Assembly: GCA_937132085.1 (NCBI GenBank)
Contig: CAKZNV010000162.1
Coordinates: forward strand, 1 to 49,063
Source: an uncultured Rubritalea sp.
GTDB lineage: Bacteria; Verrucomicrobiota; Verrucomicrobiia; Verrucomicrobiales; Akkermansiaceae
Length of the DNA stretch: 49,063 bases
Direction: 5' to 3'
The notes beneath the pieces were generated by a model, which was given only the letters and a program-made list of their open reading frames with translations, ran no database searches and had not been told where the DNA came from. Positions 18,061-23,341 of this stretch are shown one piece after another. The stretch's first letter is position 1, and each line of letters starts with the position of its first letter. Made by a program: the position numbers and the translations under genes.

Positions 18061-18229
18061 GCTTTTTTAGTGCCTTTGTTGTGGGTCTTGTAGCCATGAA
18101 ATATGAGTTTGGCGAGTGGTAAAAGGAAGGATTTTTCAAGATTTTGGCAGTTTAGAGTTAAAAATGAGTTGATTAAGTGATAATCCTAGTCAATCAATGA
18201 GTCGTCTACAAACAAAACGACAAAATTTT

Positions 18230-18463
18230 ATGGCAGATAACGAAGATAAGAACCCAGAGAACGTAAAAGGATTATTTTACGTAGATAGTCAGTGCATCGA
18301 TTGTGATCTGTGCCGTGAGACAGCGCCTAATAACTTCACTAGAGAAGATGACGAGGGCTATTCATACGTGATGAAGCAGCCTGAAAATGCTGAAGAAAAA
18401 GAGCAGTGCATTGAGGCTATGGAAGGCTGCCCAGTAGAGGCTATTGGTGAAGATGGGGAGTAA
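18230..18463 (+). CDS. 4Fe-4S ferredoxin
   Basis: This small cytoplasmic electron carrier has one cluster. The motif CIDCDLCRETAP supplies Cys 22, 25 and 28, and CPVEAIG supplies Cys 67 (numbered from ATG 18230). An extra Cys 60 could pair in a disulfide, as in other single-cluster ferredoxins. I prefer ATG 18230 (MADNEDKN); the frame also opens at 18197 with a basic, unlikely extension. It is the first gene of a plus-strand run whose members overlap, and its stop overlaps the start of the DUF721 gene by 11 bases. The redox partner is not evident. Confidence 0.92.
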   Translation: MADNEDKNPENVKGLFYVDSQCIDCDLCRETAPNNFTREDDEGYSYVMKQPENAEEKEQCIEAMEGCPVEAIGEDGE

Positions 18464-18854
18464 TCCACGAAAGTATAACAGTTTTAACAAGGGCTCGCGT
18501 TCAGTGCAATGGATGCGAGCTTTGACGTTGCGGCAGTGGCGTCATGGGGATCCAGTAAAGGATCCTATAAGAAATATTCACCATGCTGGTGAGCACATCG
18601 ATGAACTGCTTAAAGAGCTCGGTGCATCTGGTGAATTAGAGGCCGCTCAGCTGAATGAAGCTTGGGTTAAGGTGGCAGGAGGATTTATCGCTAAGAATGC
18701 GAAACCAGAGTCTCTGAAAAAGGGAGTGTTGGTGTTGAGGGTGGTGCAGCCTACGTTGAAATTTCAGCTAGAGCAGATGAAGGGAAAACTACTACAGAAC
18801 TTCAAGCGTGAGCTGGGTGAAGGTGTGGTGAAAATGATTATTTTAAGAATATGA
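18453..18854 (+). CDS. DciA-like DUF721 protein
   Basis: DUF721 proteins include DciA, the ancestral loader of the replicative helicase DnaB in bacteria that lack DnaC/DnaI. The 133-residue chain has the typical KH-like core: LNEAWVKVAGGFIAKNAKPESLKKGVLVLRVVQPTLKFQLEQMKGKLLQNFKREL. Its basic N-terminal extension (MGSNPRKYNSFNKGSRSVQWMRALTLRQW) may bind DNA or helicase. I chose ATG 18453; GTG 18447 and TTG 18444 are in frame upstream. It overlaps the ferredoxin gene at its start and the next gene by four bases (ATGA). Confidence 0.8.
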   Translation: MGSNPRKYNSFNKGSRSVQWMRALTLRQWRHGDPVKDPIRNIHHAGEHIDELLKELGASGELEAAQLNEAWVKVAGGFIAKNAKPESLKKGVLVLRVVQPTLKFQLEQMKGKLLQNFKRELGEGVVKMIILRI

Positions 18855-19837
18855 AAAAGCATTGGATTTTTGATTGGTCAGGGACTGTGGTTGATGACTT
18901 GGGCTTAGTGGTTTGGTCCACTAACTATGTTCTGGGGAAATACGGGAAGCCAGAGTTGGATCGTGAAGAATTCAGGCGTTCATTTTGTCTGCCTTATGCA
19001 GACTTTTATAGGCAATATGTTCCTGAGGGGGATATGGATGAGGTGGAGGCGCTTTTCCGAGAGGGATTTGATGTTTCTGATGTGAAGGTGACTGTGTTGC
19101 CTTATGCGAGAGAGTTTCTAGATCTGCTGAAAAGTCGTGGATGTAAGCTGTATGTGCTGTCTAGCATGTGCGCTAAGGCATTCTCTGAGCAAGTTGTGGA
19201 GTTGGGCATGGATCATTATTTTGAAGAGACTTATGCTGGTGTGCTAGATAAGCGCGAAGTGATCGGTGAGATGATGCAGGTGCATGGCATGGGGCAGGAG
19301 AACACTGTTTTTGTGGGTGATATGACTCATGATGTGGATACTGCGCATCACGCTGGAATCATGAGCTTGGGTGTGCTCACTGGTTATAATCATTCTGCTG
19401 CTCTGGCTGAATCTGAGCCGACGATGATGGTGAAAGATCTCAATGTAGTGGCTAAGATGTTAGGATCGGATTTAGTAGAAAATACTAATGAGTTGGTGAA
19501 AATCAGAGGGTTAGATCTACCAACATTTATCGGTGTTCCTGATGAAGAGAGGGCTGAACAGCAGGTGCTGAAGGTGCATGTGGATATGACTCCTGAAGTG
19601 AAATTTTCAGCAATGAATGATGAGATAGAAGGTGGAGTGGATTACTACCAAGTGTCTCTACGTCTCAATACCGTAGCTCTTGAGAAACCACGTAAATTGA
19701 TAGAGACCTTAGCAGCTGATTTAGCTGATGTGATTCTCAGTGAATACCCAGTGACTAAGGTTAGAGTGGAGATAGAAAAGTTTATTATGTCGAACACTGA
19801 TCACGTAGGAGTGGAGCTGTTTCGTAGTAAGGTGTAG
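18851..19837 (+). CDS. HAD-superfamily hydrolase fused to dihydroneopterin aldolase (FolB)
   Basis: The 328-residue protein joins two domains. Residues 1-205 are a HAD hydrolase: nucleophile D8 in DWSGT, motif II VLSS at 102-105, motif III K134 and motif IV VGDMTHD at 155-161. The usual +2 Asp acid/base is Ser 10; phosphonoacetaldehyde hydrolases likewise have a small residue (DWAGT). Residues about 217-326 match FolB, which cleaves dihydroneopterin to 6-hydroxymethyl-dihydropterin plus glycolaldehyde. The FolB catalytic positions appear intact: E233 in GVPDEE, Y265 in GVDYY and K310. The order phosphatase-then-aldolase mirrors the folate pathway, where dihydroneopterin monophosphate must be dephosphorylated before FolB. 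It overlaps the DUF721 gene by four bases. Confidence 0.88.
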   Translation: MKKHWIFDWSGTVVDDLGLVVWSTNYVLGKYGKPELDREEFRRSFCLPYADFYRQYVPEGDMDEVEALFREGFDVSDVKVTVLPYAREFLDLLKSRGCKLYVLSSMCAKAFSEQVVELGMDHYFEETYAGVLDKREVIGEMMQVHGMGQENTVFVGDMTHDVDTAHHAGIMSLGVLTGYNHSAALAESEPTMMVKDLNVVAKMLGSDLVENTNELVKIRGLDLPTFIGVPDEERAEQQVLKVHVDMTPEVKFSAMNDEIEGGVDYYQVSLRLNTVALEKPRKLIETLAADLADVILSEYPVTKVRVEIEKFIMSNTDHVGVELFRSKV

Positions 19838-21601: not shown

Positions 21602-23341
21602 GTGAGGTCAAGATATTCAAGTCTGGGGCTGTCTGCTTTATTATACATAGTGGCTGGCTTTGAGGATGCGTGTTCTTCTACTAATTGGGTAGGAGGAAGC
21701 TCTGATATTGGCGTGAACTCAAACTGGAGTAATGGTTTGCCTACATTTACGAACGAAGGGACAGTGGGCGGAGCAGCAGTTGTGAATTATAATTTATCTT
21801 CTGCCTTGAACAGCATGACCCTGACTCTCACTGATTCTTCGACTCTAGGAGGAGGGAACTTGTATATAACATCGAGTGATTTATTTGTGAATCAGACCGC
21901 TGAACTAGCTGTTTCGAGTGATCTAAGAGTGGGGGCTGCTAGTTCGTCACAAATCACTAAAATTAGTCTAACAGATGCAGCTGGTCTCATTGTGAATGAT
22001 GATGTGTTTTTGGGCTATAACTCTGTAGCTGAGATCAATCAGGCAGGGAGTTCTTATTTTAGCGTGGGTGGGGATCTGATATTGGGTGAGAGAGCTGGTG
22101 GGGCGGATAGTCTCTACAGTTTATCAGGCGGAACTTTAGAAATAGCTAAGTCATTAGAAATCCTGCGAAGCTCTGAGTTTAAGATGAGTGGTGGAACTGT
22201 TGTGGTTGATGAAAATTTTAAAACTAAGGGTAGTGGTTCATTGTTAGAAGTATCACAAGGCTCACTGTCTGTGGGGAACGATCTAGAGCTAGATGATCAG
22301 GGTGCTGCTATTATCTCTGGAGGAGATATCGATGTTGGTGATGATGTGAAGCTCAAGCATCAGAGCACGTTTACGATTACAGGAGGAGTTCTTCAGGTGG
22401 ATGATAAATTTGAAGTAAAGGGGGGTAGTGATGTTACTCAGAGCGGAGGGATTATCGGTGTTGGTAATAAATTGGTTCTTAAAGACTCAGGTTCTACTTA
22501 CACTCAGTCTGGTGGTAGCTTAGGAGTGGGGGGATTGGAGGTAGCTTCTAAGGCTAAGTTTTTTCAGACAGGGGGAGCGACGACTGTGGTAGGTGATGTC
22601 ACGGTAAAAGACTCTGAATTCCACCAAAGTGATGATGTGAGTATTGGTGGAGATCTTGTGATTTCTAAAAAGGGTGTATGGTATGCGAATGGAGGTGTGC
22701 TTAATGTTGGTGATGATCTTATTTTGAAAGATTCTAATAGTGAATTTGTGCAGACCAATGCGGATGTAATAGTAGATGGCTCATTGGATCTTAGTAAGAA
22801 TGCGAAGTATTATCTAGAAGGAGCCGGAAGTTTAAAGGTCGCAGATGCTATTGTGATCGATAAGGCTCAGAATTTCATCTGGAAAGATGGAGGGACGCTA
22901 GCAGTCCATACTGCGGCTAATGTTATCAATGTGATCGGTGACGTGGATACCTCTAATGGTGCTATCCTGGATTTAATGGGTAAAACGGAATTTCTGGATG
23001 TCAGTAAGACTATTGATATTCAGGATCTAGAGGTGAGCGGCTATGATTTAGATCTTGATGCTCAGCGTGATATTACTGTGCAGACCGGGTGTTATTTATT
23101 GATAGAGGCGGATACTATCGTGGGTGCTAGTAATATTTATTTCACTGGTTTTACTGGGCAGGATGGGGCTGTTTTGATTGCTGATGGCGCTATATTTAAT
23201 CCTCTTTTGGAGGATGTTTATTGGTTCGAATCATCAGCAACGCAGGTTCATGTCTGCTGGAGTTTGACGCCTGTTCCTGAGCCTTCTAGCTTGATGCTAT
23301 TAGGAATGAGTTCTTTGGCTCTTTTGGTGCGAAGACGATAG
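21602..23341 (+). CDS. PEP-CTERM repeat surface protein (beta-solenoid)
   Basis: The 579-residue exported protein ends in VPEPSSLMLLGMSSLALLVRRR, the PEP-CTERM sorting tail (VPEP, hydrophobic span, Arg cluster) that is cut by an exosortase. The body is a run of short repeats of about 20-25 residues built on patterns such as SGGxLxVGxDLxLKDxS, giving a predicted right-handed beta-helix like autotransporter passenger domains. The N-terminus begins STNWVGGSSDIGVNSNWSNG, typical of this group. GTG 21602 starts a plausible signal peptide (about 1-25); a TGA lies in frame upstream at 21577-21579. It is probably linked to exopolysaccharide at the cell surface, an inference from the sorting signal. 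Confidence 0.88.
   Translation: MRSRYSSLGLSALLYIVAGFEDACSSTNWVGGSSDIGVNSNWSNGLPTFTNEGTVGGAAVVNYNLSSALNSMTLTLTDSSTLGGGNLYITSSDLFVNQTAELAVSSDLRVGAASSSQITKISLTDAAGLIVNDDVFLGYNSVAEINQAGSSYFSVGGDLILGERAGGADSLYSLSGGTLEIAKSLEILRSSEFKMSGGTVVVDENFKTKGSGSLLEVSQGSLSVGNDLELDDQGAAIISGGDIDVGDDVKLKHQSTFTITGGVLQVDDKFEVKGGSDVTQSGGIIGVGNKLVLKDSGSTYTQSGGSLGVGGLEVASKAKFFQTGGATTVVGDVTVKDSEFHQSDDVSIGGDLVISKKGVWYANGGVLNVGDDLILKDSNSEFVQTNADVIVDGSLDLSKNAKYYLEGAGSLKVADAIVIDKAQNFIWKDGGTLAVHTAANVINVIGDVDTSNGAILDLMGKTEFLDVSKTIDIQDLEVSGYDLDLDAQRDITVQTGCYLLIEADTIVGASNIYFTGFTGQDGAVLIADGAIFNPLLEDVYWFESSATQVHVCWSLTPVPEPSSLMLLGMSSLALLVRRR

Follow-up and report, generated by a model that had tools for sequence, protein, structure and literature searches.

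A HAD domain fused to dihydroneopterin aldolase in an uncultured Rubritalea: a candidate phosphatase for dihydroneopterin monophosphate

On the way from dihydroneopterin triphosphate to 6-hydroxymethyl-dihydropterin, the textbook order of enzymes is Nudix, phosphatase, aldolase. The window analysed here (the whole stretch of 49,063 nucleotides from contig CAKZNV010000162.1 of an uncultured Rubritalea sp.) contains a gene in which a phosphatase-like domain of the HAD superfamily is joined to the aldolase, FolB, and this raises the question of what the HAD domain does for its partner. Parts of published accounts describe the conversion of dihydroneopterin triphosphate (DHNTP) to 7,8-dihydroneopterin 3'-monophosphate (DHNMP) by a Nudix enzyme, and of the latter to dihydroneopterin, the substrate of FolB, by a non-specific phosphatase (PMC1971073, PMC5526541, PMC6451014); there, the monophosphate step is left to such a non-specific enzyme for bacteria and plants in 2007 (PMC1971073) and for plants in 2019 (PMC6451014). 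In a literature search that had most subscription papers outside its scope, no earlier report of a HAD-FolB or HAD-Nudix-FolB association was found among the titles and abstract openings of the matches listed. We suggest, from sequence and gene context, that the HAD domain is probably a dedicated phosphatase for DHNMP. The features on which the argument draws are these:

18197-18463: ferredoxin-like gene near the fusion (Pfam)
18444-18854, + strand: DciA-like gene (Pfam DciA, 2.5e-14), its 3' end overlapping the start of the HAD-FolB gene by 4 nt
18851-19837, + strand: fused HAD-FolB gene, 328 aa from ATG to stop (Pfam HAD_2 and FolB; AF2 mean pLDDT 95.0)
18851-19465, + strand: HAD domain, residues 1-205, C1-capped, with a phosphoglycolate-phosphatase-like fold (Pfam, structure match)
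18872-18886, + strand: DWSGT motif, D8 to T12, with the predicted nucleophile D8 and with Ser10 at the site of the normal +2 Asp (conservation in relatives)
18896-18898, + strand: D16, an invariant Asp (143/143) where the cap hinge begins, the putative stand-in for the +2 Asp
19250-19252, + strand: K134, the lysine of HAD motif III (143/143)
19319-19333, + strand: D157-M-x-H160-D161, the predicted metal site of HAD motif IV (D157, M158, H160 and D161 each 143/143)
19466-19495, + strand: interdomain linker, residues 206-215, of low model confidence (AF2 pLDDT <50 at 209-211)
19496-19819, + strand: FolB (dihydroneopterin aldolase) domain (Pfam), the sole FolB match in the genome
19900-20763: PPK2 gene, downstream of the fusion (Pfam)

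Both domains lie in a single frame, as the initial annotation had claimed, with HAD_2 at residues 6-175 (2.2e-22) and FolB at 216-323 (4.3e-21), each above its Pfam cut-off; the residues it had singled out (D8, S104, K134, D157 and D161 in the HAD part, E233, Y265 and K310 in FolB) are all found at the positions given. No other frame of at least 80 aa exists on either strand inside 18851-19837. The same frame recurs in fused form in five relatives at 65-76% identity across the full protein, and comparison of the window protein with these five indicates strong purifying selection on both domains (pN 0.13-0.23, pS 0.69-0.80, the latter saturated). The HAD-FolB fusion is a real gene, neither an assembly artefact nor a chance open reading frame. 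The ferredoxin-like, DciA-like and PPK2 genes around it, as assigned by Pfam, include no folate gene. Further along the window, at 21602-23341, there is a 579-aa frame rich in G/S/D repeats, the C-terminal end of which resembles a PEP-type sorting signal as judged by eye.

The genome that the window comes from is of Rubritalea type, 4.46 Mb in size and 98.7% complete; a contig search for near relatives of the fusion returned three at 69-75% identity, two from Rubritalea and one from Verrucomicrobiales. A second, stand-alone folB, the existence of which had been raised as a point to settle for this locus, was searched for in the genome and not found; the fusion is its sole FolB match. FolE2, FolK and FolP (DHPS) are present, and FolE of type I, which was also looked for, is absent from this genome. 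The one PTPS of the genome resembles QueD, with a Cys-type motif and a score under the QueD cut-off. Elsewhere, GTP cyclohydrolase type I (PF01227) occurs in 2 of 17 genomes (G091 and G254), both of which are without FolE2 (PF02649).

The HAD part is most similar in structure to 2ah5 (Z 25.1, rmsd 2.2, 204 residues aligned), a C1-capped, phosphoglycolate-phosphatase-like protein, and the AF2 model has the features that place it among the C1-capped members of the HAD superfamily, a Rossmann-like core and a helical cap between motifs I and II. The motif set of the superfamily (Asp nucleophile, Ser/Thr of motif II, Lys of motif III, acidic motif IV) is also present: D8, K134, D157 and D161 are found in 143/143 unique HADs, and position 104 is S in 91 and T in 52 of them. 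Among the positions examined, the residues without exception in all 143 are D8, W9, G11, T12, D16, N25, F41, F45, L47 and P48, followed by K134, G156, D157, M158, H160, D161, G178 and P190. The NCBIfam equivalog cut-offs for HADs are all far from reached, and the Foldseek and VIA-align lists for the window protein contain no family that settles the substrate of the HAD.

The feature that departs from a classical HAD phosphomonoesterase is residue 10. The Asp at the +2 position from the nucleophile normally protonates the leaving group in these enzymes, and a Ser removes that residue; here 142 of the 143 unique HADs have Ser at this site, one has Cys, and none has Asp. This is the chief chemical difficulty and it counts against our reading. 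The DWSGT motif is found in 140/141 unique sequences and is thus a signature of the whole family rather than a local oddity; since practically all members keep it, it looks selected and not like a decaying site. The anomaly noticed in the initial annotation is real. The sole unique member with Cys at +2 (DWCGT, at L166:3926-5497 on the + strand) is a HAD-Nudix-FolB triple fusion. The residue aligned to D16, eight positions after the nucleophile, is Pro in 3sd7 and Ser in 2ah5 and 2go7; because D16 is invariant in the window's family and located at the cap hinge, it may have taken over the acid/base duty. A further hint in the initial annotation was that DWSGT might point to phosphonatase-like chemistry. 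Phosphonoacetaldehyde hydrolase carries DWAGT, has a lysine in its cap and acts on a small aldehyde, and the resemblance of the motifs stands; the HAD does not qualify as a PhnX, with a score of 20.7 bits against an NCBIfam cut-off of 220 and with no invariant or near-invariant lysine in the cap (residues 16-80) across the relatives.

What the HAD does is indicated by the company it keeps. In the HAD-search set, folB is fused to the HAD in 21 of 93 loci (in one of them together with a Nudix domain), is found on the same strand at a distance of up to 100 nt in 55 and of up to 1 kb in 8, and is not nearby in 9; the HAD is thus fused to or near folB in 84/93 loci across the class. As a rule there is one FolB per genome, and the linkage of HAD and folB is therefore far beyond chance. 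Counted over all 143 unique HADs, there are 41 HAD-FolB and 4 HAD-Nudix-FolB fusions. In 79 further cases folB lies no more than 100 nt away and in 8 no more than 1 kb; 9 have no folB nearby, and 2 are located at contig ends. These numbers are biased toward linkage because loci from the FolB search are included. Where the FolB frame is short, the same HAD is often found directly upstream. The two genes overlap in 56 of the 94 split pairs, which come from both searches without de-duplication, and in 30 of these the overlap is exactly 4 nt. Recoding at a TGA inside the HAD was considered for six listed matches and rejected: in five the HAD stop lies in a 4-nt overlap with the start of folB, and in the other (L174) it comes 63 nt before folB begins. 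Neither arrangement is unusual.

The HAD-search set (L075-L178) consisted of the 46 best matches, fetched automatically, and 58 hand-picked stretches, mostly one or two per family; it yielded 95 unique HADs, from which two at contig ends were left out to give the 93.

A quick tree of 132 HADs, moderately supported (of its 129 inner branches, 35 are starred and 48 open), requires at least eight changes between the fused and split states and 13 changes in Nudix presence. Split pairs (L036, L037 and L103) occur in the window's own genus too, and the clade of its fused members is nested among these. That the same partners have been fused time and again is strong evidence for a shared pathway, and together with the linkage in 84/93 loci and the Nudix domain carried on the chain in many genomes it upholds the earlier placement of this HAD in the pterin branch. 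The nine HAD loci without a nearby folB count against the DHNMP phosphatase; folB lies elsewhere in the genomes concerned (G064, G100, G316, G521, G439, G302, G320, G293 and G318). At seven unlinked places scanned for neighbours (L100, L124, L138, L153, L169, L178 and L171, the last carrying the same HAD as L120; L099 and L172 lay outside the scan), none of the ten neighbouring ORFs is a folate gene, six having other Pfam families and four no Pfam match. Also counted against it is G374, which has a HAD-Nudix gene and no FolB match, on a contig that ends soon after the gene.

The Nudix partner is found at the C-terminus of the HAD protein in many relatives (for example P0003, Pfam 9.5e-23), and in triple fusions it is placed between HAD and FolB (P0002, 2.7e-20; L166, 7e-22). 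Four unique HAD-Nudix-FolB proteins were found, three in one genus of family f4 and one in f46, families that are far apart on the HAD tree; in the AF2 model of a triple fusion the linker and FolB part are of low confidence, with block means of 31-80. The Nudix box residues G, E, R, E, E and E are invariant in 14/14 aligned sequences, while the last Gly varies. A profile of the linked Nudix domains scores 56.9 bits with NudI, compared with 35.8 for Nudix hydrolase 1, the Arabidopsis enzyme, and 35.4 for the E. coli DHNTPase (NudB). By sequence, the linked Nudix is in a family shared with known DHNTP pyrophosphatases; orthology to these does not follow from that. The nearest solved structure is that of NudI, and the greater closeness of NudI than of the E. 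coli DHNTPase counts against the DHNMP reading. So does the situation in the window's own genome, where a domain of the linked type has no near relative (best score 46.7 bits, as opposed to 232-236 in two HAD-Nudix genomes).

FolB matches are present in 265/288 genomes of the order, and among the matches listed the frames are ~320-415 aa long in the window's genus and several other genera, and short in others. At 1e-20 the HAD profile matches 219/286 genomes of the class, a figure in which strong matches and ordinary HADs are mixed, and 97/240 genomes of the phylum sample. The searches were limited to the window's phylum, with at most 10 candidates scored per genome in the class search and at most 13 in the phylum search; among the matches listed, those with at least 235 bits all belong to the window's class, beyond which the highest score is 107.4 bits. 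The DWSGT HAD family is thus seen only in this class among the sampled genomes. Within the order, 15 of 16 hand-picked genomes of one family lack a strong HAD (G027 is the exception) though all have FolB; together with six genomes that have a KF-type FolB, described below, these count against the DHNMP phosphatase, as they indicate that FolB can do its work without the HAD, which is hence not universally required.

In a hand-picked set of 63 genomes, folK and folB are neighbours in 23 of the 51 that have no strong HAD and in none of the 12 that have one, a complementary pattern that we count in favour of the DHNMP phosphatase. Among the same 63, FolB is absent in 12 and FolK in 9. Two near-complete genomes of genus code g2 (G057 and G073) are without both FolB and HAD and retain FolK and FolE2, with FolP in G057; their pterin branch seems to be defective or to rely on another enzyme, and PTPS-III might bypass FolB there. 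PTPS-III has Glu at the Cys site of the CxxxHGH motif. The single PTPS of G000 and that of G010 have the Cys-type motif, and their QueD match is under the cut-off, as is that of the PTPS of G057.

The FolB domain of the window scores 76 bits with Pfam (cut-off 31.8) and 65.2 with the TIGR00526 domain model (cut-off 45.05), and its structure matches that of V. cholerae FolB with a TM of 0.90 (target length). E233, Q238, Y265, E285 and K310 are invariant in 149/149 FolB domains, whether HAD-linked or not; by the positions in solved enzymes, E233, Y265, E285 and K310 are the catalytic Glu, Tyr, Glu and Lys. The NCBIfam folB equivalog cut-off of 72.15 bits is not reached by the whole window protein (64.1), by the domain alone (67.3) or by P0004, a stand-alone, HAD-linked FolB (69.8). 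With individual models, the window domain scores higher for FolX (43.4 bits) than for E. coli-type FolB (34.1); a profile made from 25 FolB domains of the HAD-family type is nearest to ordinary FolB structures (80.6 bits), with FolX at 61.8. None of the 25 aligned HAD-family FolBs has the sequence KP after the catalytic Lys, the place of Pro being taken by F, R, Y or H. From 20 FolB loci fetched, 18 belong to genomes without a strong HAD; 12 of these are canonical, with KP, and the other 6 (L224-L228 and L230) have a KF-type FolB similar to those of HAD-linked lineages. The contrast between the 12 and the 25 belongs to the complementary pattern that we count in favour of the DHNMP phosphatase. 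Another arrangement was seen in G316 (L234:2953-3861, - strand), a 303-aa frame with FolB at the C-terminus and a cpYpsA SLOG domain at the N-terminus (PF12694, 1.8e-54), in a genome where the HAD is located elsewhere.

Several other roles for the HAD can be weighed on the same evidence. Phosphoglycolate phosphatases are nearest to it by both fold and profile, and this would also suit a pathway in which FolB acts as a dihydroneopterin-phosphate aldolase and the HAD dephosphorylates the glycolaldehyde phosphate that is released. An aldolase of this type (EC 4.1.2.60) is reported from Chlamydia, and Chlamydiae are distant relatives of the window's phylum; the likeness of DWSGT to the DWAGT of a small-aldehyde enzyme, the unusual residues after the catalytic Lys and the preference of the window domain for the FolX model would be in line with this as well. 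We nevertheless consider it unlikely, as the broader profile of 25 domains is closest to ordinary FolB and the cap is without the conserved lysine that phosphonoacetaldehyde hydrolase has. It is quite improbable that the HAD is a pyrophosphatase which removes the pyrophosphate set free in the Nudix step and so pulls the pathway forward: the better NCBIfam matches include PpaX (47.1 bits), the structural matches include a Bacteroides HAD pyrophosphatase, an enzyme with a cap glutamate (Z 21.6), and Ser or Thr at +2 suits anhydrides, P-type ATPases having Thr, but the PpaX cut-off of 218 is as distant as described for the equivalogs above, and lineages that have no Nudix on the chain, the window included, still keep the HAD together with FolB.

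The lack of a Nudix on the window chain, and of a close relative elsewhere in the genome, might instead mean that the HAD acts on dihydroneopterin tri- or diphosphate and alone produces dihydroneopterin in such lineages; a good leaving group could be compatible with Ser at +2. This seems very improbable to us, since the family keeps all its motifs with or without an attached Nudix, and the job of the HAD thus appears to be the same in both. We give hardly any credence to a regulatory or incidental link between FolB and a HAD that acts elsewhere; the nine of 93 HADs away from folB and the ten neighbouring ORFs without a folate gene would agree with it, while linkage in the other 84, at least eight changes of fusion state and the triple fusions speak against it.

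The three kinds of activity needed for these steps are just those brought together in a chain or operon with Nudix, HAD and FolB, and from this we infer the role of DHNMP phosphatase for the HAD. In many relatives the Nudix domain, either mid-chain or at the end of a HAD protein beside a separate folB, would first remove pyrophosphate from DHNTP. The HAD domain would then strip the last phosphate off DHNMP, and the FolB domain of the same chain would cleave dihydroneopterin to glycolaldehyde and 6-hydroxymethyl-7,8-dihydropterin, the latter for FolK; one chain or operon could in this way span all steps from the product of FolE2 to the substrate of FolK, and intermediates might be channelled. 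In the HAD active site, D8 would be the nucleophile, with K134, D157 and D161 handling phosphate and Mg2+; with Ser at +2, the invariant hinge residue D16, possibly together with the invariant H160, would supply the acid/base. More tentatively, and with the odds somewhat against so complete a picture, we speculate that the HAD-Nudix-FolB chains and operons are self-contained machines for making 6-hydroxymethyl-dihydropterin from DHNTP, and that the acid/base of the DHNMP phosphatase has shifted from +2 into the cap hinge (Ser10/D16), which would make the enzyme a catalytically new form of HAD.

Operons, recurrent fusions and triple fusions that include Nudix tie this family to FolB and make the monophosphate gap testable with one protein, and the conserved +2 Ser would test how HAD enzymes work without the usual acid/base residue. 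Folate synthesis is in addition an antibiotic target, and the family also seems to be present in gut-associated relatives (genus code g2, probably Akkermansia).

In relation to known systems, the window FolB has the domain and the four catalytic positions of the dihydroneopterin aldolase FolB (EC 4.1.2.25), from which it differs in being fused to a HAD, in lacking the Pro that follows the catalytic Lys in canonical FolBs and in scoring under the equivalog cut-off. The chlamydial route (EC 4.1.2.60) is reportedly likewise an alternative around the missing phosphatase; there the aldolase accepts the phosphorylated substrate, whereas here a phosphatase-like domain is present. The DHNTP pyrophosphatases FolQ of L. 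lactis and NudB of E. coli carry out the preceding step of the pathway, and the linked Nudix keeps the catalytic residues of their box; unlike them, it is nearer NudI by profile, is missing from the window gene, and is physically joined to HAD and FolB where it occurs. Domain fusion within the pterin branch is also described for Bifidobacterium longum, with FolK duplication together with FolB, and in the part of that account bearing on these fusions no HAD or Nudix partner is mentioned, in contrast to the present family (PMC1971073). With the phosphatases of the phosphoglycolate phosphatase and PpaX type (2ah5, 2hsz, 2nyv), finally, the window HAD has in common the fold, the cap type, D8, K134 and D157/D161; it scores below their equivalog cut-offs and is distinguished from them by Ser in place of the +2 Asp, by the additional invariant residues D16, N25 and H160, and by its coupling to FolB.
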